64,000 bases of DNA, taken from contig OX485809.1 of assembly GCA_950295325.1 (NCBI GenBank), positions 11,718,001-11,782,000 on the forward strand, given 5' to 3'. The notes beneath the pieces were generated by a model. That model made no database searches. It was given only the letters and a program-made list of their open reading frames with translations, and was not told the origin of the DNA. Origin of the DNA: Polytrichum commune (Eukaryota; Streptophyta; Polytrichopsida; Polytrichales; Polytrichaceae). The position numbers and the translations under genes are program-made. This document shows positions 4,200-51,313 of the stretch, in pieces; position 1 is the first letter of the stretch, and every line of letters starts with the position of its first letter.

Positions 4200-4990
4200 G
4201 AATGCCAAGTTATTTGTAAGATTCATCATGGGAGCGTATGGGGAGCGTTGGTGATGGTAGTGAATATTTTGCAATTTAATGAAGGTTGTGAAAGCAAGTG
4301 ATTATAGTTTAGATTTGTTGGGACAAGCAATTATGACATATTTGGAAACACCCAAGTCCAAGTATTCCAATTTGAAAATTTTTGTAGTTTAATAAATTGG
4401 GATTGGACGTGTGGAATATTGTTTGTAAGAACAATGTTGCCATCCGTGTAGGCTATGGTAGTGAGTTGTGTGTCAGAAGTGTTGAAGTGATATCCTTGGG
4501 ACCCTTTGGATAGCCAATGTAAAAGAGGCTCTAGGAAGGATATAAAAAGATAGGGACTAAGGGTGTCACTTTGTCTTGTGCCACGGCTAATGGGTATGGG
4601 AGGTGTTGTTGCGAAATTTGGTCCTTGGGAATGTGTAGTAGAATGAGAGTATATATTGCCGATGAATTTTATTGCATTTGTAGGTTAGGCTAGGTCGAGC
4701 ATAAGAGTGCAAAGTCTAGGATGGTCAATGAAGTCAAAAGCATTTTTGAAATCTACATAGGTGAGATACATGTAAATTTATGAGTAAATTTGGCACCTTC
4801 TAGGGGTGTAATAATTGCTTGAAGTTGACATGCTATGCTTCGCCTTGGGCGGAAGCCTTCTTGGTTGTGATGAAGGATTTGGTATGATTCTCCATGAGAG
4901 GTAAGAAGGGATGTGAGAGTGCTTGTAAAAATCTAATAAATTATACATGCTAGTGCTATTACCAAGGTACATCAATGTTCTAATCCTCTT
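4200..4990 (-). pseudogene. Decayed LINE reverse transcriptase fragment
   Basis: On the minus strand this stretch parallels the reverse-transcriptase region of the large LINE (about 16.1-16.75 kb) at DNA and protein level. Shared plus-strand words include GGAAGCCTTCTTG and GGATTTGG, around the block that encodes the QEGFR motif, and an AAATCTA block. The catalytic YADD box has decayed to AYTDG near 4435-4455. Numerous frameshifts and stops make it a dead fragment of the same or a sister family. Confidence 0.75.
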
Positions 4991-11559: not shown

Positions 11560-11681
11560 CTACGGGCATGATTTGAATAGTTTGGATTTGCTATTCACTT
11601 GGCATTGAGTGCATTTTTCATAGTCTACAAGAATTCGTGCAAAGAGAAAAATATCCAAATAGCACATGGATGTCTACCTTA
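11560..11681 (+). mobile_element. Right end of a TAAGGTAGAC-family MITE
   Basis: GGCTACGGGCATGATTTG, through AGAGAAAAATATCC, to the terminal GTCTACCTTA matches the right half of the 38156-38510 element. It abuts the microsatellite tail of the large LINE, so the LINE probably landed at the edge of this MITE. Confidence 0.7.
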
Positions 11682-11723
11682 AGAAGAAGAAGAAGAACTC
11701 CGGTCCCTACTAGGGACCGGAGT
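11681..11723 (-). repeat. LINE 3' terminus: TTC microsatellite plus perfect hairpin
   Basis: A GAA microsatellite (11681-11696; TTC on the LINE sense strand) is followed by a perfect 12-bp inverted repeat at 11697-11708 and 11712-11723 with a 3-base loop. The hairpin is the last unique sequence before the tail, where the element's own RT would be expected to recognise its RNA. The same GGGACCGGAGTT end occurs beside a different microsatellite in the SINE-like element at 46837-47165. Confidence 0.85.
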
Positions 11724-12260
11724 GAATAAAGTGTCTGTTCGTAGGACAACCGTGGCCGTACCCCAGGGTAGCGGCGTTGGGTGTAATACTACTTCACCCT
11801 TTGCAGGGAGTAGACACTATGTTAGTAACTAAGGTTTTAACCGGTTGAACCGGGGGGGGGGGGGAGGGGGGTGTGTAGGGTGTATGGGTTTTAGTTTAGA
11901 GTTTTGTGGGTCTTGCTACTTTGTTTGAGACGAGAAGCGTGCGTATTTGTTTGGGGTATAACTGGAAGTTGGTTGTATAGTTGGTCGCCAAGTCATGGTT
12001 CCAAGGTTGGTTGGATAAGGACGTGCGTGTTATATTAATACGGTCTGGGTTCGATTCGTGTTGAATCCGTCTGAGCGTGTTAGTGTAATACATTGTGACT
12101 TGGTGCTGCAAGTGAGGTAATCATAGGCAGGAAAGTTATGCCAACCAACCGGCTACTCCCCGCCTTTCTGAGCTATAGGTGGTAACTTAATAACTAGTGG
12201 TCTTACCACTACCCCTCTTTTGATCGGGGGGGGGGGGGGAAGAAAGATGTTGTGTTGGGT
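11724..12260 (-). other. LINE 3' UTR with partial duplication of ORF2 sequence
   Basis: This stretch contains two similar modules, each with a G-run (11851-11875 and 12226-12239) followed by sequence resembling the ORF2 C-terminus. About 40 bp at 11912-11950 is nearly identical to ORF2 sequence at 12800-12830 and encodes the same LLVSNKV peptide. It therefore looks like a tandem or template-switch duplication at the 3' end. A GTTCGATTC word at about 12049 fits a tRNA-like B box on the plus strand, opposite to the LINE, and may be coincidence. Confidence 0.55.
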
Positions 12261-15200
12261 TCATGGGTTTATATTGTGGTTTTGTAGATTTGTGATGGAT
12301 TGGTTGTTTTCTATTCGTCTTTTATGAATCAATATTGAATGCGCATATTGTGTAGCGATTATATTTATTTGTTTGAATGTGCTTCTAATTTGGGATGTAG
12401 GGAGTTTAAGTTGTGTTTCAAGTTCATTCATCGAGGGGATGTGATTTGTGGCTCTGGCTCCTAATGCTAGTACGATAAGTGGGGCTACGTTCCAACCCCT
12501 TGCTATGATATTGTCAATGAGTGGTTGATATTTTGTGATTTTCCTCTCCCTTGTTTCTACAGAGAATCTATCGTTACAGTATGTAAATTCAATAAATTGT
12601 ATGGTAATTGTTGGCGTAGGTGCTTCTGGGGGTGGGGAGTTGTATGGGTGGCCAAGCAAGCATATTATGTCGGGTTTGAGCCTAGCGTTGCAGGAGCATC
12701 TTTGGGTGTTGCATGTGCATGGTAGTAACCATGTTGGGACTGTGTTTTCTTGGGGTAGTTCATTGTATGTGTCTGCATTCATAAGTATGTAGTTTCTTGT
12801 TACTTTGTTTGAGACGAGAAGCTTGCGTATTTCCCATACTGCTCTGTTATGTCTATTTGTTATGAGCGCGTGGATGTGTTGTTGTTTGCATTTTAGGAGT
12901 ACGTGTAACCATGTATCTGCTTCTGGTGAGTTACATATGGGACATGTGTGGGACGGGTATGCGATTCTACCAAAGAAGAGTTGTTTCCTAGCGTGTCCCA
13001 TATATTGTCCAGTACGGAATTTTACTAGACATGTTTTTTGTCTGTCCGTGATGACTGGATTATTCCAAAAGTCATTTGATAATACTTTGTCAATATCTTT
13101 GTTGTCTAGCCACTTGTGTAATTGGTGTGTTTGGGTAGCTATGAGGGCTAGGTTGTGTTTTTTGTCATATTTAGTGATATATTTACCAAGGTGTCGGATG
13201 GGGCCTTTGTCGGGTGTTTCTTGCATTGAGTGCCACCAACCTTTTTGGAGGTAGTATGGTGTGGGGTGTGCATGTTCATGTGTGGCTATGGCATCTCTAT
13301 GGTCTAGTTCACATCCCATTTTGGCTAACTTGTCCGCTTGTTCGTTACCGCTTATATTCGTATGGGCTTTAACTTTATGTAGTGTAGTGATTTGTGTTCG
13401 GGATTGTAACATTTTGATTATGGCTTCAAGTATCTTCTTGTCTGGGTGACTGTTGTGTACGGTTGGGTGTTTCATTTGTGTATTTAGGAGGTATAAAACA
13501 TTAAGGCAGTCTGTAAAAATATGTGCCGGTTCATTTCGGTATGTAGTAGTGAGAAGGCATAGAGTATGATAAATAGCCATTATTTCGGCTCGTAGTATGT
13601 TTTGGAGTCCTGGTAGTCTTTCTGCAATTTTCAGATTTTTGAAGGCGTTGTATATGCCATATCCTGCTTTTTCTCGTCGCCAATGTTCGTCAGTTAGTGC
13701 TTTAGGTGGAATGAATGACCCATCTGTATAGTAGCAAAATTGTGGTGGGTATTTAGGGGGTAGACATATGTCGTGGTTTGTGATTGGAGGAATATTGGAA
13801 GGTTGTATTGGGGGCGAGGGGGGTGGGTATGTAAGTTGAGACCATTTCTTACTATGGTTTACTGGTGTGTTTGTTAGAGTGGGGGGCGCGGTTGTGGTAA
13901 AAATACTGGGTATATGTAAAGATGTGCCGAGATTGTGTATGTGACCGATGTATCCTATGGGGTTAATGGGCATAGTTTTGTGGTGTATACATAGTATTCT
14001 AATGTCACAGTTTTCTATTCGGGGTTCAGTTCGTAATTCCGGTGGTATTGTGGGTTTGTCATATGTAATGGTATCTGCTTTGAAGTGTGTGATGATGTGC
14101 GAGTCCGGGAAAGGACCTTCATGGGGATGAAGGTTGTGATACCAATTTGGGTCTGTTGTTATGAGTATCGTTATTGTGTCTGGGTTGTTTTTGGCAGCGA
14201 GTCTTGCCCAGTGTAGAGCTTGTTGGGTGTCAGTTGGTGTGTGAGGATGAGCATACCCATTCCCTATCCATTTATGTTGAAATGCGGTTCCTTTTGACCC
14301 GAATACTATATCTCTAGGGAATGGGGAGGAGAATTGTCTAAGCGAGGTGGGGCATGTTACTGGGGATGAGAAGTGTGAGTGTGTGATTTGGAATGAATCA
14401 ATGATGTGTTCTAGGATGGCGTGGGGTAGTGTGTATTGGGCAAGTTTGAGGGGGTCGTTTTTGGGCATTCTATATTTGTATCGTTGATATAACCATGCAA
14501 CTTCCTTTTCGAATGATTGTATGGGGGGTTCTAAGTTGGTTGGTTGGTGTAGTGTGTTTTGGTATTGTTCCCATAACCATTGTAACCTCGTTTCCGGGAT
14601 GGTAATTAAGTGGCGTCCGTCATCATCGTAAATATGTGATACACCATGTTGGCTTTGGATGGTAGTTTGTGTGCAAGCGATGTCATTATCCGGGTTACAT
14701 TCATTAATATGGATGTGGCATAGGGGTATGATGTGCGGTGGGGGGATGTATCTTGTGTCTCTTATTTGTGCTTCATCGAAATTGGTTTTTAAAATTTTGG
14801 TAAAGTGTTGGTTTTGTTCGTGAGTATAGTATTGAGTTAGTAGGAGGATGTTATGATTGATGGTGTTTTGGTTCTCCCATGGGAATAAATCTTTTTGAGG
14901 GAGCCATTTGTTGTATGTTAAGTCGTTCGGGAGTATCCATTGACAGAGGTAAGATGTATATTTCTTCGTAATTTTGTTTTTATCTTTGTAGGTATGGGGG
15001 CGGTCGTTTATTATGGAATGAATTGGGAATTGTGTGTGGTTTTTGGGGATGTGTGGTGGAGGTTTTGGACATTCGGGTGGTGGGGGCGGTGGGAATGATA
15101 GGGGGTGTTCGTTGTGGTTTCTTGTTCTTGCCTCTATGTGGTGGTTTTGTATTTTGTATTCGGTTTTTAGAGTGTTTGGTAAGGCATGTGTTGTGCAGTT

Positions 15201-18200
15201 ATTTGGGCATTGGTTGTGACATGGCATTTCACAAAAGAGTATCCGTGCTTGGGTTAAGGCGGCTTTAATTGTTTTAGTGGGTGTGTCGTAGTAATTTTTG
15301 AATTCATCGTTGGTCATTAATTGTGTGCCATTGGGGTGTGTTATGTGTTTGAGCTCAGTTATGTTGTGTAGTATTAGTTTGTGTAGGTATTTTAGGGAAG
15401 TTGTGGGGGTTAATGTTGGTATATTTTGTATTTGCCTCATCCATTGTGTTTCAAGTGGCGTGGGAAGGAGGGGGAATTTTGCGAGTGTGCTTTTTAAATG
15501 AACGTTGCTAGTTGTTTTGAGTAGGTATAGCATTCTTGTAATTGGTGATCTTATACAGTCATGTTGGGATATGCGTGGTAGATTTAATGACCCTCCATGT
15601 TTGGCAAGTATGTATTTTGTTAATCCGTTGTAGATTTTCCCAAGTCTCCCTTTATCATTGAGGGCGTTAATGAGTTGTTCGCCAATGCATGTAATGTATG
15701 CATTTTTTAGTGAGAATGTTTCTATGCCAAACATGTCGTGAGGAAGTTGTGTGACTGCATTTGACATGCATTTTGGGAGGCCACATATGGTTTTGTGTAA
15801 GGCTATTATTCTTTTATCTAGTTTCTTAATGGCGGGGAGCGAATATGGGACCACGTAGAAGCTGTAGGCTATGCCGGCTCTTATGACTGTGTCAACCATT
15901 TGTATATTTTTTTTCATGGTGGCTGGGCATGTAGTTAGTAGCTTGCATTGTTTGACAAGTTTAGTTGTTGTTATGTGCGTTTGTATTTTCCATTGTAGTG
16001 ATGGGACTAAGTTGATTCCTAGGTAGACGTATAGTTCATGTTGGCTTAGGATAGGGATGACTTGGTCCCTAAAATTTATATTGGCGTTTTCTAATTGTAT
16101 TTTGAAGGCTTGAGAATTTAGTTTCGATTTGTTTGGACATCCTGTGACTGCACATTTAGGTATGCCTAGGTCCATTCCTGCCCATTCGCAGTATTTGTCG
16201 AGTTTGTTTAATTGGAGTTGGAGGGAGGGTAAGTTGTTAGATATGGCCGCTAGGTCATCGGCATAGGCGGCGGAGCTTAATTTCGTATTGGAGGTATTAA
16301 ATGTATATCCGTTGTTTCCCCTTTGTAGCCACCTAAGTGGCTCAAGAAAGATAATAAAAAGGTATGGGCTTAATGTATCTCCTTGTATAGTTCCTCTTTG
16401 TATGGGTATAGGTTGTGTCTTGCCAAAGTGTTCTCCGGTAAGTGTGGTAGTGGATTGTGAGTAGATATTACCTATTAAGGCTACCGCATCTTGTGGGTAG
16501 CCTAGGTCTTTCATAATGGCAAGGAGCCTAGCGTGGTCGATAGATCCAAAGGCATTTTTAAAATCTATGTATAAGATGTAAATATCTTGATTAGTAAGTC
16601 GTACGGCAATGATAGTTTGGAGTTGTCTTGCGGTGCATCTTTCGGTACGGAAGCCTTCTTGACTATCGTGTAGGATTTGGTGTTTTTCTCCGTATGCGGA
16701 AATGATACTTGTAAGTGTACTAGTAAATAATTTGTATATTGTGTTAGCGAGTGCGATTGGTCTATGGTTGGTAAGGTGGTGGGGGTTCCCCTTTTTGTAT
16801 AAGAGAATTGTGAGGCTTGTTTTCCAAGATTCGGATATTTGTTTTTGTTTATAACAATGGGTGAAGAATAATAAAAGTAGTTTGTGGAACCTTGGCGGCA
16901 TGATTTTTAATATGACATTGGGGATTTTATCGGGTCCGGGAATTTTTCCATTAGCCAAATTTTTTAGGCATATGTCATATGTTGTTTGGTCAAGGTATGT
17001 GTGTAAAGGAATTGATGTATCTCCTCGTTTTTCGATGGTGTATCCATTTAAGTCGTGCCACGGGTATTGTCTGATTCCGCATATGCAGTGTTGTGTGTGG
17101 TCTGGTTGGTAGTAGCATGTTGGAACAGTGGGTCTATTACTAATTGACTGTTGGGCGTGTAATTCTTGTGCTATATCATGTGGGTTAGTAAGGATGTTGT
17201 TGTATCTATCTATGAGACAATCTAGGGGGGGGGGAGTGTCGGTGCTTTTGAAAACTTTCCTATTTATCTTCTTGGGGCTTTTGTCGTAAAGTTGTTGATA
17301 CTTAGCTATGGCTTTTTTGATTTGTGCGTTAGTATAATCCGTCGTAATTTTTCGGGCTTTGTTTTTAGCCTCTTTTGCTATTGTGGCTAAATTAACTATC
17401 CATGATTCATATTCTAGAGTAGGGTCGGGCGGTGGAGGGATAGTAGTGTGGGAGTGATTACTTATTTCTTGGGTGATGATAGGATGTGTACGCCAATGCG
17501 GATTGTTTTTTATGATGTAAATTACCTTTCGGATGAGATGGTAGGTGGATAGGTTTAGTTTCCAAAGTTTTTGGGCTTTCTTTGGGAGGTATCCTCCTTG
17601 TTTGGTGATGTGGGTTGGTAAAGTGGGTATAGGTGGCGCGCTACATGTTTCTAGGACGGTGGTGGTGATGTTGTCGGTGAGTGTGTTAAATGTAGTACAA
17701 GCGAGTTGTCATTGGTCATTTGTCAATTGATTATTTTGTAAGAGTTGTGTGAGCTCTTCTATTTGGTTTGAGTATGATTCAAAGAATTTGGTGCGGAATG
17801 CTTCAAGGTTCTCCTTAGGTATTGGGTTAAGTATCCTAGGCGGTGGCTCGGAGGTTGTAAGTGGGGTTTTGGCAATGAGTGTATTTGGGGGGATTTGTAA
17901 ATATATGGGTAGGTGGTCGGAGTTTAAATTAATATTTTGGTTGGTAATTGAGGAGTATTGGTTGTTGTTGGGTGTTTTGATGAAGAAACCGTCAATTAAG
18001 CTATTTTGTGTGTAGTTGTTTCCTTCTTGTCTTGAGAATTTGGTGTTTGTTGGGACATAAGATAAGTCGAGACCGGTTGTAAAGGATCGCCAAAGATGAT
18101 CCTCTATTTGGGGTGGTGTGGTTTGTTGGTCGTTTTGTCTACCAATTAAAGCGATGTCTCTATTGAAGTCGCCACATAATATGTATGTATGATTTGGATG

Positions 18201-18806
18201 AAGGTTTATTTGATTAGTTATGGTATTTTGTATGATGGGGATGAGAGGGATGTCTTCCTCATGTGAAGGCATGTATAAGTTAATTAGAAGCCAAGGTTGT
18301 AAAGGTTGGTTTGCTATGCGTGTGATTTGGAGGAATGGGGATATTTCTGCGGGTGTAGGGATTTTAGATAGGTTTCCTGGAAATGCGTGCATTTTGTAAA
18401 TTAGTAGTAGTAGGCCACCTCTATAGCCCCTGTATGTCATTATTTGGCGTGTGAGCCTTGTGATGTTGTGTGTATTGTTAAAGAAGAGCTTGTATTGTGG
18501 GAATAATCTTTGGATATGGTTTGTGGATTTAGTAGCGAATAGCTTAGTTTCTTGTATGGTGATAATTGAGGGTGGTCTTTGGGGATTAGTAATTAGGTCT
18601 TGTAGACATGGTATTGCAGTGTTAAGAGAGGAGGCATTCCATGTTATGGCATATGATTTTTGGCTTGTTAACGGGAGTGGGCGAATCGGTGTAGGTGGGC
18701 TTTGTGTCGGAGGGGGGTTAGGGTGAGTGTATTCATTTATTGGTTCTTTATATCTTAATGCCTCTATGAGTAATTGTCTTGGTAAATATGGGAATGTGTC
18801 ACTCAT
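12261..18806 (-). CDS. LINE ORF2 main part: APE endonuclease, RT, RNase H, CCHC and probable RLE
   Basis: One continuous frame of about 2180 codons, broken only by a TGA at 17709-17711. Order along the protein: APE endonuclease (QETKL near residue 85, CGDFN near 212, IDGFF, NSDH near 300), with its catalytic residues present; a basic linker; reverse transcriptase (KIPGPDK, LYIDFKNAF, GTIQGDTLSP, YADD at 16254-16265); a linker of about 600 residues; RNase H with all four acidic residues (TDGS at about 13720, RAEIMAI, FTDC, GNEQAD); a CPIC/H/C zinc knuckle (about 12890-12955); RHN (about 12845); a CTC/CSC cysteine cluster; KPDII (12669-12677); IEFT (about 12580) and RERKITKY. CCHC, RHN, PD and KxxKY in this order are known from the restriction-like endonuclease of R2-type LINEs. 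The frame starts at ATG 18806, but an in-frame TAA at 18882 and a one-base shift suggest it was once joined to the upstream 2A region. The copy is dead through the stop codon. The RLE call is the least certain part. Confidence 0.88.
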
Positions 18807-19140
18807 GTGTTGAATGTTAAGTGTGTTTGGATTTAGATGTATGTAGTCATATAGTTTTTTTGTGAATGGTGTTAGGTGGTGTTATTATGTCTTTATAGAT
18901 GTTGCAAAATTGTGTGTATGGGTGGGGGGTGTTTATATGTCTTTCCGGGGGGTTTGTGAGTGTTGTCATTGTTACTAGTAGTTGGGATGTCCAATCTTGA
19001 GGTGATGGTAGTTGTAAATATGTGTTACATGTTTCTATGGATGGGCTAATCGTTACAATTAGTGCGTAAATGATTCGTGGGGGGGTGTGATTTATGTGGG
19101 TTTGTATGTATTGGTATAGGTGTGGGAATGCGAGTATTGT

Positions 19141-20691
19141 TTATGCATGTAGTGGGTGTGCAACTTGAAAAATGGGTTGGAATGTTTTAGCGAGGTGTTG
19201 GTATTCGGGTTGGAGTTTGATTGTACTTGGTATGAAGTATGTATTTTGTCTTCGTTTGTGGTCGGTGGGGTGTGTTTTTAGGAGGTCGGGCATGGGTCCC
19301 GGGTTGGGGTGGATGTCTCCGCATTGTAATATGAGTAAAAGTTGTTGAGTGTGGTGGTTTATTGTTATGTTTGATTGTGGTTTTTGGTTGAATAGCGGTG
19401 TGGTGTTTTTAGTTTGGTTTTTATGGGGGGTGAGGGGATTGGGTGGTTTGTTCATATTAGGTATATGTTTGGGTGTGTAAGGGGTATAGCTAGGTTGTTT
19501 TGGTTGGGTTGAGATGTGATTTGTAAAAAATAATAATTTAGTTGTTAGTGGTGTTAGGCTTAGGTTCCGGGAGTTGAGTGTGTATGGGTTTATATAAGGT
19601 TTAAGTGTTTTTCCTAAATGTTCATATTGAAGTTGGAGTGTTAATGTATATAATGTGATATATTGGTTGTGTTTTTGTTTGTGTCTTTGGGGTGGAGTTT
19701 TAAGAGTTGTTAGTATTGGACCCGGGTTGGGTTCAACGTCACCATGTTGAAGGATTAGTGCGGAGTTGTTCCAAGTGTGGTATTTTATAGTTTTGATTTT
19801 TGGGGTTTTATAGTGTGTGTGTGTTATGTAGTATATATGCCCCATAAAGGTTATTGTGTTAATGGGGGTGGTTGTGGAGGTTTGGTTAGGAGTGTGGATA
19901 TGGTTAGATATTGTTGGTATGTGTAGCGGGATATTAAGTGGGTTTAAGTGTATGTGGGTGGTTTTATGATGTGTATATATTATGTGATGTTTTATATTTG
20001 GTATGGGTATCATTTGAGGGTTTATGTCATGGGCTTGATTTTGGAGCGTGTATGTATTGTGAGTCGGGTGTTGTATTTGGTTAGTGGAATGGGGGGAGCT
20101 TAACCATAGCGTAAGGCTATAAGTCATGCGTTTATTTATGTGGTGTGTTGTTTGTAGGTGTTGGAATGTTGATGTATTATGGGCTTGGCATTTTATATTG
20201 TTATGGAGATGTCGTTGGTGTGGTGAGGGTATGTGTTGGGTGAAGTGTGGTGTGGAGGGTAAGTTGTTATGGTGTGGGGAGGTGATTGGAGATTTGTGTT
20301 TAGTTTGTTGTAGGAGGTGTAGTTCTTGAGGGTGGTGTTGTTGTTGTTTTGGATATGTGTGGTTTAATTGAGTTATGTGGGTGAGTGATGGATCGGCATG
20401 TGCTATGAGTGCGGTGAGGGTGATAGTAAGAAGAATGGTTATGGTAATGTTGTGGGTGAGGTAAATGTTGTGTGTTGGAGAGGGGATAGTTGTATGTGGG
20501 TAGGTATGTTGGTGGGTGGATTTCTTTGTTGTTTTTGAAGTATGAGGGTTGTGGTTACTTTGTGTTTCATAAGCATGTTGGAAGCAAAGTGAGTTGTGTA
20601 AGAAAGTGGCCACTTTATTTAGAAGTGAGTAGAGGCTACATATTGTGTGTATGGTATACGACCATGTATGTGCTAATGTGTTGCTATTCAT
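19141..20691 (-). CDS. LINE ORF2 N-terminal region with two 2A-like motifs
   Basis: A 516-codon frame starting with ATG at 20691, which overlaps the ORF1 stop in the string ATGAATAG. It is rich in Thr, His, Asn and Pro. A hydrophobic segment lies near residues 82-98 (ITITILLTITLTALIA). Two 2A-like sites follow: GDVEPNPGP (19717-19743, the canonical D-V-E-x-N-P-G-P) and GDIHPNPGP (19294-19320, E replaced by H). Each is preceded by a leucine-rich stretch ending in LILQ and followed by a similar block of about 50 residues (LLKT or LKT, H-K, LQxEYxHL), so the module is duplicated. Such motifs make ribosomes skip the G-P bond and are known from APE-type LINEs of animals and trypanosomes. The frame ends at TAA 19141. 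The same frame then stays open for about 95 codons to a run of seven A (about 18851-18857), where a one-base shift leads into the endonuclease frame. I infer that the intact element made one ORF2 polyprotein. Confidence 0.8.
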   Translation of the reverse strand: MNSNTLAHTWSYTIHTICSLYSLLNKVATFLHNSLCFQHAYETQSNHNPHTSKTTKKSTHQHTYPHTTIPSPTHNIYLTHNITITILLTITLTALIAHADPSLTHITQLNHTYPKQQQHHPQELHLLQQTKHKSPITSPHHNNLPSTPHFTQHIPSPHQRHLHNNIKCQAHNTSTFQHLQTTHHINKRMTYSLTLWLSSPHSTNQIQHPTHNTYTLQNQAHDINPQMIPIPNIKHHIIYTHHKTTHIHLNPLNIPLHIPTISNHIHTPNQTSTTTPINTITFMGHIYYITHTHYKTPKIKTIKYHTWNNSALILQHGDVEPNPGPILTTLKTPPQRHKQKHNQYITLYTLTLQLQYEHLGKTLKPYINPYTLNSRNLSLTPLTTKLLFFTNHISTQPKQPSYTPYTPKHIPNMNKPPNPLTPHKNQTKNTTPLFNQKPQSNITINHHTQQLLLILQCGDIHPNPGPMPDLLKTHPTDHKRRQNTYFIPSTIKLQPEYQHLAKTFQPIFQVAHPLHA

Positions 20692-21814
20692 GGGGTTGTC
20701 TATGGTCTTTGTGGACGCTTGGTGAGGGGCTCCGGTAGTGGGCGCCCGAGAACCCGGGTGGTGCTAGGCAGTTGTTAGGTTCTCCCGCATGAGCGTTGAC
20801 CACGGGCGAGCTTGGTGCTTGAGGGAGTCGTGCGATGTTGGCGTTGGGGGGCTCCGGTGTGGTGGCGGCAAGCGTTTGCATAATGTTGTGTATGCGATTG
20901 TTGGAGTGTTGAAATTCCATTGCCATGGCACTCATGATGTTATGGATGTTTGTGGCGTGGGTCTTGAGCGTGTCCGTGGAGGCTTCAATTCTCTTATCCG
21001 TGTTGAGATTGATGTTGTGTGTGAGCGATGTGAGTTTGCCGTCAATTGTGTCGACCAACTCCTTAATGGTTTTGGCGAAGAATTTCTCCGACACAAGGGG
21101 TGAGGCGGCCGCGATGTTGTTCATGGCTTGAGCTTTTTGTGCAATGACTTCACGAACGGGGGCGTGTGCTAGTCGTATGGCCGTTTGGTTCGGTGTGGTC
21201 CCGTCGATGCTCCCTTTGTGGGGGATGAAGTCCACTCGCCTCCCAAGGATGTATGTGGACTTCCGTAACCATTCCGTGTAGACCGCCGCGTTTAGACATT
21301 GGATGTGGCACCACCCGGATTGACGATCGTCCTCTTGGTTGGAGTTGTGGCCATAGGTGATGCCGGAGATGTTTTCTTCCCCGAAGAGCCTCTTGAGTGC
21401 CTTGGTAATAGTGGATTGCGATTCACGTTGAGGTAAATTGTTAGCCACAAGAGTAGTGCTAATTCTAAGCTCCGAAATATTGCCTATGTCTTTGTCTCTA
21501 GTAATGCTTACCTTTAATTTTTCGGAACGGTAGATTAGACCATTCCTAAGGATGTCGTCCTTTGCTTCTTCGGTGGTGAGGGTGATGAAGGCGAAATCCC
21601 TTTCCTCATCCGATTTGGTGAGCGATAGAATTTCTATCTCGCGGCCTTCGTAGTAGGATTCGCTCATGAGGGTGCGGAGTATGTCTATAGATGTGCTACC
21701 CCGGAGGGTTGAACCTTTAATGTGTAGTCGCATGTTCTTGGCCTTGGTGATGAGTTCGAAGCCCTTCTCCACCTTGCCAATGACACGTTCGCCGTCACCC
21801 ATTGTCATTACGAA
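20684..21814 (-). CDS. LINE ORF1 C-terminal part (RRM-like and coiled-coil)
   Basis: A 374-codon frame from the first ATG at 21808, open upstream to the insertion border. Residues about 20-200 look like two alpha-beta modules of RRM type, a common fold in LINE ORF1 proteins (FAFITL-type strands near 72; SGWCHIQC near 165). Residues about 240-320 are helical with heptad-like spacing, then a proline-rich tail. The expected role is RNA binding and multimerisation of the LINE particle. The start is artificial: removal of the 21820-24292 insertion joins it in frame to the segment ending in GERA upstream. The stop TAG (20684-20686) overlaps the ORF2 start. Confidence 0.75.
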   Translation of the reverse strand, partial: FVMTMGDGERVIGKVEKGFELITKAKNMRLHIKGSTLRGSTSIDILRTLMSESYYEGREIEILSLTKSDEERDFAFITLTTEEAKDDILRNGLIYRSEKLKVSITRDKDIGNISELRISTTLVANNLPQRESQSTITKALKRLFGEENISGITYGHNSNQEDDRQSGWCHIQCLNAAVYTEWLRKSTYILGRRVDFIPHKGSIDGTTPNQTAIRLAHAPVREVIAQKAQAMNNIAAASPLVSEKFFAKTIKELVDTIDGKLTSLTHNINLNTDKRIEASTDTLKTHATNIHNIMSAMAMEFQHSNNRIHNIMQTLAATTPEPPNANIARLPQAPSSPVVNAHAGEPNNCLAPPGFSGAHYRSPSPSVHKDHRQPHE

Positions 21815-21819
21815 TGCAC

Positions 21820-24292
21820 TATAGATAGGTTTTTAGATTGGGTTCCAATTAAGAAAACCACACAGGGAAGACCAAATGAGTGTCAGGTGTTACATCTAGG
21901 GATCACCATTGAGTTAATTGATAGATTACAAGAGAATTAAGATGTATTTAGAACAACAAACACAGGGAAAAAGACTTCTAGAGTGAGCTTTAGGATTGAT
22001 TCAATTAAGGTTAAGGGTCACTCACAGCAGTACATGCAATTGATCAGTCACTCCCTCACAACCCACTCTCGTTAGTAACATCACTCTTATAATGTGTTTT
22101 GCAATTCAGGGAGTCACAGCTCAACCATAGACATTTGAGTACGCCATAGTCTCAGAAACCCAAGGCAAAAACTCCTTGAGGTGACCATAGTCTCTTTAAA
22201 GAAGTAACCAAGGACTATAGGCCATACCACAGTTAGTAAGGATATCACGTTCACACTTGACTCCTCCTATGGTTAAGTGATTGATTTAATTAGATAAAGA
22301 CCACAGAAATGAATTATTTCCTTAGCCAGTTTTAGACTTAACACTATCACAGTGGAATTGAATGCATTAATTATTAAAATTAACAAAAGTCTAACGTGTG
22401 ACAGTAACCTAGTGACCGAGTCTAGAACCGAACCGAACCGGGACCGTAAGAGTCTAATCGCAGGACCATAGTCTACACGGCACGGCCATAGTCTAGTCAC
22501 CAGTAACAGTCACAAGTAACCAGTATCAAGTCACGTCTTATAGAGAGGGCCATAGTCTTAGTATCCAGTAACCAATAACAAGTAGCCAGTCACCAGTAAC
22601 CAAGTCAGCGTCAAGTTCTCGAAGGTGATGCTGGCCACTCCTCCTTTTATGCTTGCCTTTGAGTGCTCCCCCTAACAATATGGGTTAAAGGCGGCTTAGC
22701 TCTCCCACGCGACTCCTCCTTCGGTCTTCACGCGCGTGCAGCTCCTTCTCTCCTCCTTACAGGAACGGCGATTCCACTTCACAGCTTCGCAGATTCAATT
22801 CACCTACCCCTTCTCAAGGTGGTGACTGTTACTAAAATTTAACACACTCCATTGCCGCAAGCAGTCAGAACTTCATCGAATCCCACTTACTCGGCACTTA
22901 ATTCATAAACAGTTTCCATTAATAAATCATTACTCTGTAGACATAATTTTGCTCCCTGCTTAGAGTTACACACCAACTTTGTGCTCCCCGGTGTTTTCTT
23001 TCACTCAATTAGCAACTTAGCCGAAGTGAGTCTGCTCTCGGGAAATTCAATTTCTAAATTGCTTCTACCCTGAATTCGTTTCGAGTAAGCTCCGCTGTTC
23101 TCTCTTTTGACTGATAAGTTTTCAACACTGAATCCTGATTCGGATAGAGAATCAGATGTCAATCATTCACGACAACTTAACTACATCCATCACCACTCTG
23201 AGGGAAAAGAGGATTGCTCACAGAATTATGGTCTTACTCTTTAAATGACACACTCCTCTCCTCAGATAGCCAGTCACAAGTAGTTATTTAGTTTGGAATC
23301 TCTTCATCAAGATTACTGAAATTAAGGCATAGAGTTGACCTCAAAGGAATTTCACATTCCTATTTCGCGTCACACATATAAATAATCTCAAGGGATTTAT
23401 GATGATCAAAATGCTTCACGCCTTCGATCTCGGACAATCACAAGACAAGGGGAAGAAGAAATCGCTCCTTTCACAGGTTTTCCAGTTCGACTTGTAGTTC
23501 TATAAGAATTTCCGAAGAGATAACAAATTGTTTCTCCGATGTCCAGCACAACTTCACATCAGGTAGATGAAGACTAATCCAACCAATTCACATGGCCGAA
23601 TACACACATAAAGAATGAACTTCACATTCACTCTATTATGACATGACAAGTTCCCAATTCAGACTTGCATATCAATTACGGGTTTCACACTTCTTTACTC
23701 GTCTTTCAACAATGAAAATTACACAACAATTATCTTACTCCCTTCACAGGAGAAAGGTAATACACTGCTTTCCCGATCCTTCACGAACCAGAAAATGACT
23801 CTTTGACTTAATTGATTCACAACAACAACACAAACAACACATCACAATTTCGATTCACTCACACACAGTTGATAAGACAGCTTCACGCTGTAATATTATA
23901 TTAAGAAGAGTAAGATGTACATCACAAAGGGCTTCACACCCAAGCGAAAAGCACTCAAAAAACGACAAAGCAAGGGAGGCTCTCTTCTCGAGAGGAACTG
24001 CCTTTCTCCTCTCCCTCTTCTCCTCTATATCCCCTAAATTAACTACCTCGTCTCTTGGAATCAGATTTCATAAGGCTCTTCGACTTGGTCACATGTCTAT
24101 TGCCCTACCCAAAAGACTCTTCCTCTTGGGATCTGTTTCATATGAATTAAATGTTTCACCCTTAGCTCATTTCGGATAATTGGTCACTAATGACTTACTT
24201 TAACGTCCATTTCACATTCTGAGTGCCAATATGAATTCACATCCTATCAAAATTCTAAAATGACTATTCTGAGACCAAAAAGTTGTACCACA
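21820..24292 (-). mobile_element. 2.47-kb LTR-like insertion inside LINE ORF1
   Basis: Flanked by TGCAC at 21815-21819 and again at 24293-24297 (GTGCA on the minus strand), a five-base target duplication typical of LTR retrotransposons. On the minus strand it begins TGTGGTACAAC and ends CCTATCTATA, so the 5' TG is present while the expected terminal CA would be TA. It contains no open frame of note and many CCATAGTCT words (about 22130-22560), so it may be a solo LTR or a non-autonomous element. Element plus duplication is 2478 bp, a multiple of three, and the LINE frame reads GERA then FVMTM across the empty site. With one base less certainty at each edge, a six-base duplication is equally possible. 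Confidence 0.65.
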
Positions 24293-24982
24293 TGCACGTT
24301 CACCTCGGAGAAAAGCTAGGCCGTCTCGCTTAGGGTGTTGGAGGTGGATTTTAATAAATCCGGCCCAATTCCGTGTGACCGTGTTGATGCCTATGTCGAT
24401 TGGGTTGGAGTAGGTGAGGCCTAAGGGATGCTCATAAGTCGTAGGCGCTCCAAGCATGCGGTTTTGACTTCTTGCCGGCTAAGTTGCTTGTATTCTCCAT
24501 CAAACCTTATAGTGACGTGGAACCCTTCGGTTAGGCCCGTGTCTTGGGAGATTTTCTCATACATGGGGACTTGGGTGAAGTGGAGATGTTGCCCGGGTAC
24601 CGCATCCGGACGCTCAGATGGGTAAAGAGTTTGTGGTGTCCTTGGGAAGGCTCTTCGGATGGTTCGGAATTCTTGTACTTCGGTGGTGGGTGTCCCGGTG
24701 GCGTGAAAATCCTCATCCGTTCGCCTTTCTTTCAACTCTTTCTTTCCTCTTTGTATGGAAAGTGCTTCTTGCATGTGGAAGCCAAGCCACAATTGCCCTA
24801 GCATGTCAATGCCTAGTGTGGTTAGCCTCTTGGGTCGTGTAGGTGTAGGAAGTGGTAGGGACTTACTTTGTGATGTGGGTGTGGATGTGGCGGTGTAATC
24901 CGCGGCTTTTCGTCTCTTGGCATTTTGACTTTCCGAAGTATCCTCCAATCGGGGGTTGCGATATGGCAATGTGGGTGGTGTG

Positions 24983-26192
24983 CAGGGCTGTTTTTTCACA
25001 AAGTTTTTACCCGTCCACGTCCCAAAACCTCGAATTGAAAGGCAAAAAAAATTGCAACCCGTCCCAAAACCGGTAATTTCAAAACCAACCCGTCCATGGA
25101 AAGGTTGAAGAAAAAACAACCCGTCCCAAAACCGGTAATTTCTAAACCAACCCGTCCATGAAAAGGTTAAAGGAAAAAACAAATCGATAAAGATAACCCA
25201 AAAGATGTCGGCATGTGATTGGTGCACTTGCCACTTGGAAACAATAGTATCTTACTATTTTTGTTCATTTCTGCTTTTTCTATTATAATTACCAATTTGC
25301 CAGCCTGCCACTGCCCCATTTTGTCTGTTTGTCCACAGACTAATTCAGAGAAACTGAACTAGATTCAGTCACTCAAACTCAACCGGTTCATTTGAAACTA
25401 ACTCGAATTCAAGAAGTTGGAGAGTGCCGCTGGAACAATCTCCTCCTGCAATCTTGAACTTCAACAGGTGTTTTCTCAAACTCAACCGGTTCATTTGAAA
25501 CTAACTCGAATTCAAGAAGTTGAAGCGTGCTGCTGGAACAATCTTCTCCTGCAATCTTGAACTTCAACAGTTGTTTTCTCAAACTCAACCGGTTCATTTG
25601 ACGACTGCAATCAATTTATCTCTCACCGGTCTCTCAGTTGCTTTAGCTTTCAGTTGCATATGTTCGATTCATTAGCATCCTAAATCTTGAGAGTCTTATT
25701 CCTCTCTTTTGTTGTGGGTTGAGTGCAGATTCGAGGGTTGTGCAGGAAATTTCTGTCAATTCGAGTTAAACCCTAGCAAATTGCAGGGTTGAGCTTGTTA
25801 GTTGTTGGGTCAATGTATGAGTAGATATTTGAGCCTTACATGTGGCTAAGATGGTGGAAGCATTGTCTTTGACATTATGTTAAAAAGGTTCTAAATTTTG
25901 TGGTTGATGAATTAATGTATGCAGGTGAATCAAGCACTTCAAGATTGATAGTTTGATTGGGTATTAGTGGTTTGATTGCATTATGCTTATATTCACATGT
26001 CATATATGACATAACATAATTGATATTTGTATCATTTTTTTAATTTAAAAATTGTTATTTTTAGAACCCGTCCAAAGTGAATTTGACACGTCCCAAAACC
26101 GGTTCATTTTCTAAGAACCCATCCACTGGAAATGTTTTTTTTTATGAACATGTCCCTAGACATGTTAGGGACCTTGTGAAAAAACACCCCTG
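24983..26192. mobile_element. Non-autonomous hAT-type element, 1210 bp
   Basis: The ends are CAGGGCTGTTTTTTCACAAA and, in reverse complement, CAGGGGTGTTTTTTCACAAG, a typical hAT terminal inverted repeat. A perfect 8-bp target duplication GTGGTGTG flanks it (24975-24982 and 26193-26200). The interior has no transposase frame. It contains a 103-bp tandem repeat (about 25372-25610, 2.4 copies) and repeated CCCGTCC/GGACGGG words near both ends. A 677-bp relative lies at 49616-50292. It was inserted into LINE ORF1 in a length that preserves frame. Confidence 0.92.
25372..25610. repeat. 103-bp tandem repeat inside the hAT-type element
   Basis: CTCAAACTCAACCGGTTC recurs at 25372, 25475 and 25578, giving 2.4 copies with few differences. 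Confidence 0.9.
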
Positions 26193-26388
26193 GTGGTGTG
26201 CCTTCTCCAATTTGCACGGATTTCCATGGCGTGGCTTGTGCTCCTTGTATCGAGTCGCCTCCTAGTGACACTTGTAAGGAGCTACCCCCTCTTTCCGGTG
26301 ACACATTTTCGAGTTGTGCATCCATGTCCATGTCTTCCTCAATTTCGAAGTTGTGGGGGAGGTTGGTGTGGTGTGATGGATGTGACTT

Positions 26389-28827
26389 CTATGATGTCGG
26401 CGGCTGAGCTAGGACTTGTTGGCGGAATTCGGAGTACCTCTCACTGAGGGTGGTGGGTGGCTGCTGGTTTGTCTGTGCCATTGATGCCCTGGTTCGTCCT
26501 TCCCGTCTTTGTCTATGTTGTGGTAGTATTTGTATGCAGCCGAGGTCTGTGGGGTCTTGAAGGCGTTGCTGGTTTCTCTTTGGATGGCTGTGTGTTTGCA
26601 ATTCTCGGGGATGTCGGTCCAGTGTGCGCCGTTGTCTGGAGTCTTGCTGTTTGGTGGATGTGAAGTTGCCTTGAGGGTTGTATAATTGGCGTCTGACCTG
26701 AAGAAATCGTTGTTGAGTGTGAGCTTGTTGCTGTTGTTGGATGGCGCTCCGTAGTCTACCGGTGGTTCTTCTCTGTGCTGGGTGTGGGTGCCTGTGATGG
26801 TCGGCACTTTGGGCTGGCTTCGTGTGGAGCCTGCAGGGATAGAGAGTGTGTGTGAGGTTTTGTATGTGAATGCACGGATTGAGGTGTAGGTGGGTAGGAG
26901 TAATACATACCTTGTGGCTGGGTAGCGGTCGGGTGGTGGGGCGATAGCTGTGGGCAATGTTGTGTAAGCAGCTCACAGTGGTTGTGGTGTGTGCAGGTTG
27001 GGTGCGAGGTGGCGCCGTCTCGTCAGCAGCTTCGGCGCTGTGCTCTGTATGGGGGTCGAGTAGCTGCAGTTCGACGAGTGGTGTGGCCTGCCCGGAGTCG
27101 GAGTTGTCTGCTCCAGGTGTTACAACTTCGGTGCTGCGCTCGGTAGGGGGGTCCAGTGACTGCAGTTCAGCAATTGGTGTGGCCTGCCCTGAGTCGGAGC
27201 TGTCTGCTCCAGTTATTGTAGTAGTGTGTTGATTGTGACTCTGCCGGTGCTCGGTGTGTGTGGCCTTCACAGGGTGTGCGGGAGGGTGTGTCGTGTGCGT
27301 GCAGCAGGGAGGAGAAGGTGTTGGTGGGCAGTGTGAGGTAGAGTGGGAGCCTGGAGCATGTATGAGTGATGAGGGGGAGGTGGTGTGCATACGGCCTTGT
27401 GCAGGAAGAAGGGTGTCTATGCTGAGTTGGAAGAAAGAGGAGTGATTGGGAGGGTGTGAGATGAGGGAGGAATGTTTGGAGGGGTGTATGGGGAGAGATG
27501 AGTGAGTGGGAGGGTGTGGGAGGAGAGAGAAGTGAGTGATGTTGAGCTTGTGTGTGGCTTTGTTAAGTACTGCAATGTATGTCTTAATGTGGGTGGTTGT
27601 GTGCAAGTGGTGTTTGGCGGCGCTTGTTGCAACAACTTTCTGATGGCGGTTTCTGTATTTTACTTGTTGTGTGTTGTGTTGAATTGCCGTATTTGTTGTG
27701 TGTATAGATTGTTTTGACTTGTATTTTGTGTGGGCTGCGTGTGTAATGTTGGTAGAGTGTGGCTTTTGGGTTGCTGGAGTTGTGTAGTTACTTGCTAGGT
27801 GACAGCTGCGGCAGTATATCTTTAGTTTGCTGGCGATTTCTGGCAGAGGCGTTTCGGGGCTTTGTGTGGGTGTTTCGCGGTGGTCAGGTTTTTGAGGCTG
27901 GCTTAGGGTTATTGTGAGAGGCAGGGTTGGTAGGGGTGGGGTTATCCGACATTGTTGTTGAGTGTTTGTTTGTGGGAGTGTAGTTGGTGTAGAGGGTGAG
28001 GTGTTTGCTAGGAAGGGTACTTGGTTGTGATATGTGGGTTTGGGTGGCTGGGTGGTTGTGTGTGTTATGGAGGATTGATGTGGGGAGTGGTGTGTGTGGT
28101 TTGGAGTGGAAATGAGGTTGGTGGTATGTGTGGGCGATCTGTGGCTGGCGGGAGCGAAGTGGCGAAGTTCGGGCGGCAGTTGTCGAACTTTGGTAAGTGT
28201 GTTTCCCCGAGTCTGTATGTATTGGGTTTGTGTGTGTGCTTTGTGTGGTAGGGTCTTCCATGGTGCCTCTTGCGGAGGTCTTTGTGTGGAGGAGTTTTGG
28301 ATTTTCTTTGTGTGATTGTCCGGTATTGGAAGATTGAGTTTGTTGAAGCATCTCAGGGAGACAAAGTGTAGGGTTGTGGAGTACCTTGGGATGTTCGGAG
28401 TGGGTGCTGACTTGTGATGTTGGAGGCGGGCGCGATGTGTGTGTACGTGTAGGTGCTTGTTCGGAGGGGATGCTGGGTGCTGTGGCTCATTGGCGACCTC
28501 GGCTGGTGCTCCTTGCCACTCCATCTTGCTGGTGAGCGCCTGGATGTTCGCGATCGGGGGCGCTCTGAGGGTTGGGTTAGATCTAGGGCGCGTCCTGGGG
28601 ATGTGTTGCTGGAGGGAGTTGGGGGTGGGCGCCTTGGTGTTCGCAGTCTGGGGCACTTGGGGTGTTGGAGTTGGCGTGGATCTGAGGAGCTTGTTGGCGT
28701 TGTGTTGTTGGTGGAAGGTTGAGGCGGATCTGTAGCGAGTGTAGGGTTTGTGGGGACGGGAGGGGGAGGGATATGCGCAAGGTAGGTAGGGTAGTCTCCG
28801 GAAGGCGGTGTTGCCTGGCTTGTGCAT
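26389..28827 (-). CDS. LINE ORF1 N-terminal part, Pro/Thr/His/Gln-rich
   Basis: An 812-codon frame from ATG 28827 (the frame is open further up to a stop at 28906) to TAG 26389. No known domain is recognised. Composition follows the A/C-rich sense strand (His, Thr, Pro, Gln). Two internal repeats support real coding in this frame: a 36-residue unit with core DSGQATPxxELQ (two copies near 27030-27215), and an approximately 31-residue unit starting QQH (about 28540-28720). The C-terminus is Q/R-rich. The same frame continues past the TAG and past the hAT element into the RRM-like part, so I read it as the gag-like N-terminus of ORF1. An 80-nt segment at 26831-26910 has good minus-strand splice signals (GTATGT and a CTGCAG acceptor), but the frame is open through it. 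Confidence 0.5.
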   Translation of the reverse strand: MHKPGNTAFRRLPYLPCAYPSPSRPHKPYTRYRSASTFHQQHNANKLLRSTPTPTPQVPQTANTKAPTPNSLQQHIPRTRPRSNPTLRAPPIANIQALTSKMEWQGAPAEVANEPQHPASPPNKHLHVHTHRARLQHHKSAPTPNIPRYSTTLHFVSLRCFNKLNLPIPDNHTKKIQNSSTQRPPQEAPWKTLPHKAHTQTQYIQTRGNTLTKVRQLPPELRHFAPASHRSPTHTTNLISTPNHTHHSPHQSSITHTTTQPPKPTYHNQVPFLANTSPSTPTTLPQTNTQQQCRITPPLPTLPLTITLSQPQKPDHRETPTQSPETPLPEIASKLKIYCRSCHLASNYTTPATQKPHSTNITHAAHTKYKSKQSIHTTNTAIQHNTQQVKYRNRHQKVVATSAAKHHLHTTTHIKTYIAVLNKATHKLNITHFSLLPHPPTHSSLPIHPSKHSSLISHPPNHSSFFQLSIDTLLPAQGRMHTTSPSSLIHAPGSHSTSHCPPTPSPPCCTHTTHPPAHPVKATHTEHRQSHNQHTTTITGADSSDSGQATPIAELQSLDPPTERSTEVVTPGADNSDSGQATPLVELQLLDPHTEHSAEAADETAPPRTQPAHTTTTVSCLHNIAHSYRPTTRPLPSHKVCITPTHLHLNPCIHIQNLTHTLYPCRLHTKPAQSADHHRHPHPAQRRTTGRLRSAIQQQQQAHTQQRFLQVRRQLYNPQGNFTSTKQQDSRQRRTLDRHPRELQTHSHPKRNQQRLQDPTDLGCIQILPQHRQRREGRTRASMAQTNQQPPTTLSERYSEFRQQVLAQPPTS

Positions 28828-30415: not shown

Positions 30416-33400
30416 ATGGCGATGGTGGCACCGCCGGAGGTTCAGGCGGTGCAGTGTAATGTGGTTTCCACCTCGGTAGACGAGACCAGCATGTTGCTCC
30501 GCGTGTGGATGTCGGAGGAAGCAATGGTGGCTGCAAAAATCACCACCGGAAGCCTTGTCGCTGTAAGTGCCTTTTATGACCTTCAATTAAGTATGTTCCG
30601 AGATTTTGAGATTGTTCTCAACGGCTGCAATTTGCAATGTGCAATGTGACATCATCACAACCTTAAATTTTACATCACTAATTGCTGTTGAATGTTTACC
30701 CTAGCCAGGAATCTTCCAGGTTCACAGATTACAGTTGGAATGGTGTTTCATTTTATTTTCGCTGAACTTTAAAACTCGACTGAGTACCTACCGGGTTGCA
30801 AGATCCCGGTATAATCTAACTAGGCTACGAGTATCAAAATTGTTGTATAGCGTAAGGGAAATGCTTCTATGTGTTCAACACGAAATCACTTGATATTTTT
30901 CCACCGCAAGTAACCAGTAATGAGGGATTTGAATTCATCTCTCATAAAGCCGAAGCTCTCTATTCCAAAGCTATCACCAGATTCAGCTTAGCCTTCAACA
31001 ACCTCAAACTCTTAGTCTTGTTCGCAAGCTAATTTAGCTTTCCGCACACCGAATTGCAAAGCCTGTTGGATACATGAACAATCCGCACAGCAGTTTCAAC
31101 TTGAAAGTGTTGCCGTTATCTTTCAAGTGTTGTCTGAAAATCAATACTTGCAAGGATAGGTATTTGCTAAAGTAGCTGAGAGAATATTGTTTGCAATTTT
31201 TGTTCCGAGTGCAGGTTTCGCTGCCAGGGTTGGATTCGAATACTTCAGTTACTTCGCTTTCAGAGCTTTGGGGATCGAATTGGAATGTCGACATACCCAG
31301 TTCATGTAGCAAGTCATTTGGTGCTTTTCATATGGTCGTGGAAGCCTGGCCATCCCGCAAGGTGTCTTTTCTATCCTAAACCTTAGCAGAGAGATTTATT
31401 ATTGCAATTTATTGATACTTAACATAGTACTAATTCGGGATCCATCATGGCTAAATTCTATCAAAGCATTAATCCTTCTTTCAATTGCAATTGGCCTGAT
31501 TTGAGAGGCGCTTCATTTCTATATAATGTAAGTCATGTTTTTCCACAAGCAAATCCTGCTTGCACCTTCTTTCTCCTTCATCTCAGGGGCTTGCCCAATC
31601 TTGGGTGATCCAGGTCAATGTTTTTGCCTGTCCTTTTGAGAACACTCTCTTAAGTTAAGCGGGTGTAATTCTGTTCTTGATCTTGAATATACACCTATAT
31701 TTGAGCTGTGTGGTTAGGTGTGAATCGTAGAACGGACACCATAAAGATATGTTTTAAAAGAGATTGGACTACCTGCTCAAAATTTGTTATCCATTCTAGG
31801 CTCAACAGTGAACATTATTGGAGGGACCTATATGATCATTTATTGAGAAAGAGAATCTTCACTTTGATAATGAACAAGATATTCATATGAGCTGTGATGA
31901 TCATGAGACAAATGGCTACAGCCTGAATTGGAGTTGCTAATCATCTTGTACTAATTGTGTGTTTCATATCCTACAGAAATTGGGTGCATTGCTAAAAGTG
32001 TCCATTTAAGACCCGCTTACTCTAAAACTTCTGAGCAGGAAAACTATGAACAACAAAGTAGTATGGAAAACTCCTCTCTGATCATGGAGATTGTTTCTGT
32101 ATAGATTCACTCACTTCTTGTATCTATCAAATGCTCCAGACTGACCCATCACATACTAGCAGTTGCTGTTCCTTCTTAAAATTTTGTTCAAAAACTGGCT
32201 GTATTAATTGTTGCACCGGTTGTCTTTGTATTTCAGTTGACACGATTTGGGGTTCGACTTTCAAAACATTTGGCCATTAGCTTAGGCCACCCATCGATGG
32301 GATCATTGATCCTTCTTAACCCTATAGCACCATCGAGCAAATTAGAGAAATCGAAAGGCCATGCTGTTAATTTTTCTGTATCGGGAGACGTTGGTGATTG
32401 CACTCATGTTTCGCTTCAGTGGTGTCCTCCTCTTGAGGATGTTTTGATACCTGATATTTTACTGCCTCCACTTAGTCCAGTGCCGAGAACTCCCTCAATC
32501 TCAAGTAAAAAAATGGGCAGGACATCATCTTTTCAAGAAAACAGCTGCCAAAATTCTCCCTCTGCTCCACCAAGTCCAGTTTTTAAGACTCCCTCAAGTT
32601 CAAGTAAGCGCATGGCAAGGACATCTTCTTATCAAGAAACAAGTGGTGGCCAATCGAAAGAGTCCTTTAGGCACTCCCCCTCCCCTTCTCCTGTGGGAAA
32701 AATTGATGGCAGGAGATTTGAAGGTAGTCCGGGACCAAAGACTGCTGAAGAAGAAATAAGATTGTCAGTGCCAAATTTGGGAAACATTGCTGCAGTTAGG
32801 TCATTATTATCATTAGCTGAAGAAAATGGCAAGAAGAGCATATCATTGCTGGAGGAGTATGCGGCACGAATGTTTTCGGGCCGCTACTTGCTTCTGGGTA
32901 GTCTAGTAACTTTGCGTGTGTGTGCATGTGACTGCTTATTTTTTGTCTCATATGTCAAGATGTCTTCGGGGAGAGAAGAAACAGGAAACTCAAGTGCTAC
33001 AGGATCACTTCCACCACCTCCTCTCTCTATTTATAAGGTGGGTTCCCTTTTGAATGTGATGATTTTCTTTCAAATTTTCATGTTTAGGCCTCATGTGGGG
33101 GTCACACAGACTCAGATATGTCGTGAGGTAGGTGATGGTTCATGGAATCTGGTCTTGACATGTGAGTAACTTTGGGGATCTTGGTCTCAAGGTTGATATT
33201 TTTTTTGTGGGTAGAAATACCTGTTTTTAACTCTGATCCCAGGCGGAGCTTTTGGAAGGCTTAAAGCTATTGTATCTGAATGGATTTGAAAATATAGATT
33301 TCTTCCCCCCAAAAAGAGGGATTAACCTTGTAACCAAGCTCCCCAAGGTTGGGTAGGCACATGTCAAGCCCAACAATGTTTTACCTTGGTCCTCCAAACT

Positions 33401-51069: not shown

Positions 51070-51313
51070 GAGCATCCGCACCCATGCTCGCTATACCCGG
51101 CCTCAATGGCTTTTGGCGGGCCCGGGTAGGAATGACCACCCCACCGCAACCCGGGCAACGGCTCTTTCAAGAGCGGGCTCGTGAAAAACTTCCCCTGTCG
51201 CGCCATTTTCCAGAGTCTTCGAGTTCTCTGCGCGCGCCCAAAAGCCGGGTGATTTAGGGAAGATTTTGTTCTAATTTTTTGTGTGCACCGCTGTTCGGAG
51301 AATTTTTGGCGGG

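Follow-up and report, generated by a model that had tools for sequence, protein, structure and literature searches.

A LINE with two 2A-like motifs

The window analysed here is a 64,000-nucleotide stretch of the genome of the moss Polytrichum commune (assembly GCA_950295325.1, contig OX485809.1, positions 11,718,001 to 11,782,000), and the coordinates below refer to it. Its minus strand contains a long interspersed nuclear element (LINE) that extends from about 26481, the probable start of open reading frame 1 (ORF1), to a stop codon at 12261. Two motifs resembling the StopGo, or 2A, peptides known mainly from animal viruses lie in its second open reading frame (ORF2). We propose, with a probability of about 0.84, that the StopGo/2A sites of this Dualen-type LINE would free a leader of 324 amino acids (aa) and a middle piece of 141 aa from the enzyme, and that 5' halves have been exchanged at or near the 2A.

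A six-frame scan of the window detected NPGP three times and G-D-[VI]-x-x-NPGP only twice, both in the same minus-strand frame and inside the stop-to-stop frame 19141..20763. The first motif, GDVEPNPGP (19717..19743, type B), is a canonical D(V/I)ExNPGP and fits the core consensus (D/G/C/N)(V/I)ExNPGP exactly, while the second, GDIHPNPGP (19294..19320, type A), which is proximal to the endonuclease (EN), falls outside this consensus through a His variant at position 14 (p14). The sequences ALILQH and LLLILQC lie upstream of the motifs, and related blocks (ILTTLKTPPQRHKQKHNQYI... and MPDLLKTHPTDHKRRQNTYF...) trail them. Thus, the scan bears out the first-pass annotation, which had described two motifs in one frame, each with a leucine-rich LILQ stretch before it and a related block behind it. 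At the first motif, release is predicted after Gly, with the Pro of the next product at 19717-19719.

In the window copy, ORF2 is distributed over three frames, namely 19141..20763 with the motifs, 17709..18881 with the endonuclease, and 12261..17708 with the remainder. All features described here for the LINE are on the minus strand. The ORF2 start overlaps the ORF1 stop in ATGAATAG (20684..20691). From this ATG, the leader (19720..20691, 324 codons) runs to the first 2A and contains one clear and one weaker hydrophobic stretch. In four leaders scanned, the two most hydrophobic 19-residue stretches have Kyte-Doolittle means of 1.6-1.7 and 1.05-1.46, which faintly hints at membrane contact. 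The middle piece (19297..19719, 141 codons) reaches from 2A to 2A and opens with a type-B block related to the post-2A block of lineage 2, one of two lineages distinguished below. Between the second 2A and EN, the N-terminal block of the enzyme (18885..19296) is broken by a stop at 19141-19143 and a frame change near 18885.

The apurinic/apyrimidinic (APE)-type endonuclease (17712..18881) matches Exo_endo_phos_2 (PF14529, 3.1e-9) and Exo_endo_phos (PF03372, 1.5e-6), both above the cut-off, and is separated by a stop at 17709-17711 from the piece with the reverse transcriptase (RT; 16140..16790; RVT_1, 4.7e-25). A PCIF1_WW-like stretch (14253..14549, profile PF12237) and an RNase H (13311..13736; PF00075, 2.9e-13) complete the profile matches. 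Against PDB sequences, the window RT gave five matches, all to R2-type proteins. Moreover, the element contains an R2-like restriction endonuclease fold, the restriction-like endonuclease (RLE) of the Dualen group. Taken together, the predicted domains, namely APE endonuclease, RT, PCIF1-like stretch, RNase H, and RLE, make this an element of Dualen architecture. The 3' part of ORF1 occupies 20684..21815 and is probably continued at about 24310-24993 and 26192-26481; the frame is interrupted at about 21816-24310 and apparently at about 24993-26192 (borders approximate). In L020, one of the copies of the element elsewhere in the genome, which are designated here by L numbers, ORF1 reads straight through the place of the first interruption. 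With its two stops (19141-19143 and 17709-17711), the frame change near 18885, and the cut ORF1, the window copy is dead.

Occurrence and conservation of the sites

The genome searched is an assembly of 407.8 Mb, nearly all of it (406 Mb) in seven contigs of 42-78 Mb. Another contig, C8 (146,561 bases), carries two PsaA/PsaB genes; among the 60 of 175 matches listed for the psaB product, the solved structures 7ksq, 6l35, and 8htu, which are from Physcomitrium, score highest (1671.8 bits), followed by 9lut (1634.3 bits) and the rest (at most 1601.3 bits), as would be expected of a moss host. A codon pattern for G-D-(NTN)-(NAN)-x-N-P-G-P gave 232 + 198 = 430 matches, compared with 0 + 1 for the same pattern reversed, and the motifs are therefore not due to chance. 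Residues were counted in the 100 sites listed of the 430 matches, in which 71 DNA versions encode 18 peptides. At p13, 99 have Ile and one has Val, though the pattern admitted Leu, Phe, and Met; p14 is Glu in 60, Gln in 20, His in 14, Lys in 5, and Tyr in 1, and p15 is Pro in 38, Thr in 29, Ser in 16, and Leu in 13 (96 for these four residues), with 4 others. In all 20 regions of 9.9 kb that were fetched through the motif, a match to the window EN lies downstream of it, within 0.7 kb in 19 (2.7 kb in L012), and the window RT segment was matched in 18. The RT assigned to L026 comes from an adjacent element on the other strand, so that the lineage label of L026 is wrong in the identity comparison and in the RT tree. 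Uninterrupted frames over EN or 2A matches reach 2,919 aa (contig C1, 40.94 Mb) and 2,625 aa (C1, 17.95 Mb; C2, 42.79 Mb; C5, 35.13 Mb), and are thus long enough for a whole ORF2.

The first-pass annotation had made its reading depend on conservation of the NPGP codons, relative to their flanks, in other copies, and this conservation was found. Copies were picked by a genome search with the endonuclease, ignoring the motif, in which 106 matches were scored of 1,293 candidates. From these, 73 copies were used (69 fetched with about 1 kb of upstream sequence, L010, L013, L024, and the window copy), after exclusion of 12 with a match start beyond residue 14, one duplicate-contig copy, and 20 more. 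Based on queries built solely from residues after NPGP, the post-2A block was located in 72 of the 73 copies; D[VI][EH]xNPGP is intact in 49 of the 72, and NPGP is retained in 51. Six of the 72 could not be aligned at the motif and were excluded, leaving 66 alignable copies (at least five of eight fixed positions) for the counts per position, where D is present in 66, I in 66, N in 64, P in 61, G in 60, and the final P in 64. Over all pairs of the 66, the ratio of nonsynonymous to synonymous differences (pN/pS) is 0.08 for NPGP, 0.19 for GDI(E/H)x, and 0.29 for the next 29 codons, as against 0.91 for codons 13-30 upstream of the motif end. Inside NPGP, N is replaced in some copies by H, P by L, H, Q, or S, and G by R, D, or C. 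Furthermore, 2A and EN share a frame in 53 of the 72 copies; the path between them is open in 37, and 30 of these have an intact motif (Q at p14 counted as intact). Collectively, these results indicate that NPGP is under strong constraint at the protein level, while the preceding sequence is not.

The context of the motif was compared with that of viral sites. Among the 66 alignable type-A sites, 60 have C or S at p10, and 65 have three to five hydrophobic residues in the five positions before p10. The viral class with an L-rich upstream region ends in (A/S/C)G before D12, and p15 of viral sites favours P, S, T, L, and others (PMC12846837). The moss sites match this class in upstream context and viral sites in p15 bias, and share the core octapeptide with them. 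At p14, His is present in 37 of the 66 type-A sites, Glu in 26, and another residue in 3. Thus, the commonest state here is a rare variant in the viruses, where it showed more than 95% activity in rabbit reticulocyte lysate in its natural viral context; for E14Q, 56% or 26% activity is given from earlier work in other contexts (PMC12846837). On a tree of the downstream block, with the motif excluded, the H and E labels need six changes each, of which well-supported branches force at least three for H and at least four for E. Some of these changes may be swaps of the motif together with the part upstream of it.

Site types, lineages, and alternative readings

The two site types differ in their surroundings. 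Behind type A stands MPxxLxTHPxxHKxRxxYF; type B typically has WNNSxxILL in front of it and other, related blocks behind it. The site adjacent to EN is of type A in lineage 1 (L009, L010, L013, L016, and others) and of type B in lineage 2 (L014, L020, L023, and the more distant L021, with an EN identity of 35%). Compared with the window element, L014 is 88 and 82% identical in ORF1, 42% in EN, and 57% in RT, and L020 and L023 are 41-43% identical in EN, whereas L016 is 70% identical in EN and 82% in RT, with no ORF1 match within the 2 kb examined. The ORF1 matches of lineage 1 (L009, L013, L026) reach only 21-31% identity to the window. As far as they are complete, L024 and L027 carry the same combination as the window. 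Similarly, the EN and RT trees place the window and L024 with lineage 1, split from lineage 2 at 100/100, while the ORF1 tree groups the window with L014, L024, and L027 and separates it at 100/100 from L013 and L026. The window element is therefore most likely a mosaic, in which a front half from lineage 2 was joined to a back half from lineage 1, each bringing its own 2A. The difference in lineage between the 5' half (ORF1, leader, type-B site) and the 3' half (type-A site, enzyme) would explain why there are two sites.

Apparent exchanges of this kind are also seen in other copies. L011 is the reverse case, with a lineage-2 body and the site order B, A, B. In L030, L031, and L035, identity to the L014 B site, taken in 15-base steps, is 67-100% from the upstream sequence into the motif and then falls to 33%; from the motif end onward, these copies are instead 80-100% identical to two type-A copies. 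A break in identity of this kind at the 2A also occurs in L044 and L047 when they are compared with the B and A sites of L049. Within the 1 kb before EN, a limit that leaves out motifs farther upstream, the 73 copies have no intact motif in 14 cases, one in 31, two in 27, and three in 1; where there are several, they share a frame in 25 of 28 copies.

Tandem duplication of one 2A-block unit in one element, giving a three-product polyprotein, would also account for both sites. The blocks behind them are related, as this requires, and L010 retains, in its leader and ahead of an intact type-A site, the remains of a second motif (SKDTETNLGP-MLKLLQTY). This decayed motif is in itself a sign of recurrent doubling of the unit. 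However, ORF1 and the type-B site track lineage 2 (L014, L020, L023), while the type-A site, EN, and RT track lineage 1, and in the same three lineage-2 copies type B is the EN-proximal site in its own right. We consider a duplication unlikely for the window element. Conservation of the motif for another reason, such as a structural or binding role near the N-terminus of an undivided ORF2 protein that is made without skipping, is less probable still. Such a role could explain why the block behind the motif is likewise constrained (pN/pS 0.29). In contrast, the constraint on the motif tracks the StopGo pattern at each position, including p14, which is E or H in 63 of 66; at least three H-label changes are forced by supported branches; and the leader is free to vary and was swapped at the motif in five copies (L030, L031, L035, L044, L047).

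An ATG directly follows NPGP in 65 of the 66 type-A copies and may mark an older ORF2 start, ahead of which the leader and 2A were added by fusion. If the enzyme piece were mainly started there, the 2A would be a relic or back-up. However, C at -3 and +4 in the commonest contexts makes a poor start context, the listed type-B sites have no Met after NPGP, and a second start predicts no constraint on NPGP; we hold this reading to be slightly more improbable than a structural role. Finally, although the leader is biased in composition, a chance NPGP in a low-complexity frame is refuted by the 430 matches against 1 and by conservation in copies that were not selected by motif.

Several observations weigh against the proposal that the sites separate the ORF2 products. 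The A-site motif is not an intact D[VI][EH]xNPGP in 23 of 72 copies, and 7 of the 37 copies that are open from 2A to EN have an altered motif, for example, GDIHPNPRP or GDIETNPGS. In the downstream block, Y18, F19, and I24 match the motif in conservation, and likeness to the motif was the criterion for the 66 alignable copies, which biases the set slightly in its favour. Moreover, 34 non-A sites in the 1 kb before EN are intact, and 22 of these have Gln at p14; type-B sites with Gln may be leaky and give mixed products. For the mosaic, the other lineage-2 copies, L020 and L023, are only 43-62% identical to the window in ORF1, and approximately unbiased (AU) tests are marginal (p 0.042 for EN, 0.041 for RT, and 0.092 for ORF1). 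In addition, the trees are unrooted, and their groups were named after the identities had been seen.

Nevertheless, the co-translational separation that the first-pass annotation had inferred agrees with every test run, and the proposal is supported: sequence, constraint, frames, and junctions are observed, and skipping is inferred from the known mechanism. In the proposed sequence of events, ORF1 would be translated first, and ORF2 would begin at the ATG of ATGAATAG by termination-reinitiation. This string stands at the ORF1 end in the window, L014, L023, L024, and L027, and no instance of it was found upstream in L016 or L026; in L020, ORF1 runs into the leader without a stop. A nascent chain ending in L-rich-(C/S)-G-D-I-(E/H)-x-N-P-G would then stall the ribosome, the chain would be released after Gly, and synthesis would resume at Pro, as known for 2A. 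Each 2A would thereby free the product preceding it, and the enzyme (EN-RT-RNase H-RLE) would begin with Pro. Once separated, the leader could vary or be substituted with no effect on the enzyme, and because the 2A removes the upstream part, the enzyme might tolerate exchange of the 5' half. In a wider form of this proposal, the 2A would be a recombination socket at or near which lineages freely swap halves of ORF1 and leader, each exchange adding or replacing a 2A. Evolution of the element would then proceed by exchange of front ends ahead of an unchanging enzyme that separates itself, and His at p14 would be fully working and selected in one branch. We give this wider form even odds.

Further features and relation to known systems

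A PCIF1_WW (PF12237) match occurs in 11 of 11 aligned rows of the element, between RT and RNase H. Human PCIF1 carries an NPPF motif, at the position of which the element rows seem to have AHP or AFP, and methyltransferase activity of this stretch therefore looks doubtful. C-rich runs and a short TTC repeat in the 3' part of the LINE (12226-12239, 11851-11870, 11681-11697, minus strand) possibly form its 3' end in place of poly(A). The stretch 24993-26192 is 82-94% complementary to 49616-50283 in inverted orientation and appears to be a repeat that landed in ORF1 and has a related copy some 23-25 kb distant. At 3729-4959 and 146-780 (minus strand), the window also contains remnants of another, more degraded relative of this LINE, in pieces 28-62% identical. 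Elsewhere in the window, we take 32180-40352 (plus strand) to be exons of an AAA ATPase gene, CIP111-like by translation, while 54114-55433 (minus strand) is presumably a Harbinger-like transposase frame and 51275-52816 (plus strand) a partner-like frame.

Heras (2006) and Odon (2013) reportedly described 2A-like sequences in non-long-terminal-repeat (non-LTR) retrotransposons, the latter, by its title, in multicellular organisms. In the trypanosome element L1Tc and in sea-urchin elements, the 2A precedes the APE endonuclease, as in the moss LINE. The first-pass annotation had placed the motif in LINEs of trypanosomes and animals, and the literature agrees for trypanosomes (L1Tc) and the sea urchin (PMC5972666). 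Like these elements, the moss LINE has a 2A-like motif within a LINE polyprotein. It differs from them in its land-plant host, in the combination of APE and RLE, in often having two sites, in the His at p14 of one branch, and in the exchange of 5' halves at or near the 2A.

The Dualen/RandI LINEs of Chlamydomonas relatives combine APE and RLE in one element and have RNase H (PMC4640811, PMC8226300). The moss LINE resembles them in these domains, and its RT is nearest to R2 among PDB sequences; its host is a moss, and the 2A sites and PCIF1-like stretch are known here for the moss element alone. In SART1, ORF1 and ORF2 are coupled by a UAAUG stop-start (PMC5972666). The ORF1 stop of the moss LINE likewise overlaps or touches the ORF2 start, with ATGAATAG as the string, which suggests a similar coupling.

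StopGo works in plants, while its natural use by plant viruses is reported to lack evidence (PMC12846837); passages of a 2025 plant review treat StopGo as a tool (PMC12371167). Among the titles and opening abstract lines listed by literature searches on 2A, StopGo, and Dualen, which covered few subscription papers, none reports a plant LINE or Dualen element with a 2A. While 2A in LINEs was already known, the plant host, the dual-endonuclease LINE, the serial sites, the His variant common in one branch, and the proposed role of the 2A as exchange point appear to be new. If the proposal is true, the many constrained sites of this moss would represent a natural use of StopGo by a plant. The sites also provide a ready series of variants for plant ribosomes, with E, H, Q, or K at p14 and one to three consecutive sites. 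Moreover, they would tie a translational device to modular LINE evolution, and they place a dual-endonuclease LINE in a land plant.
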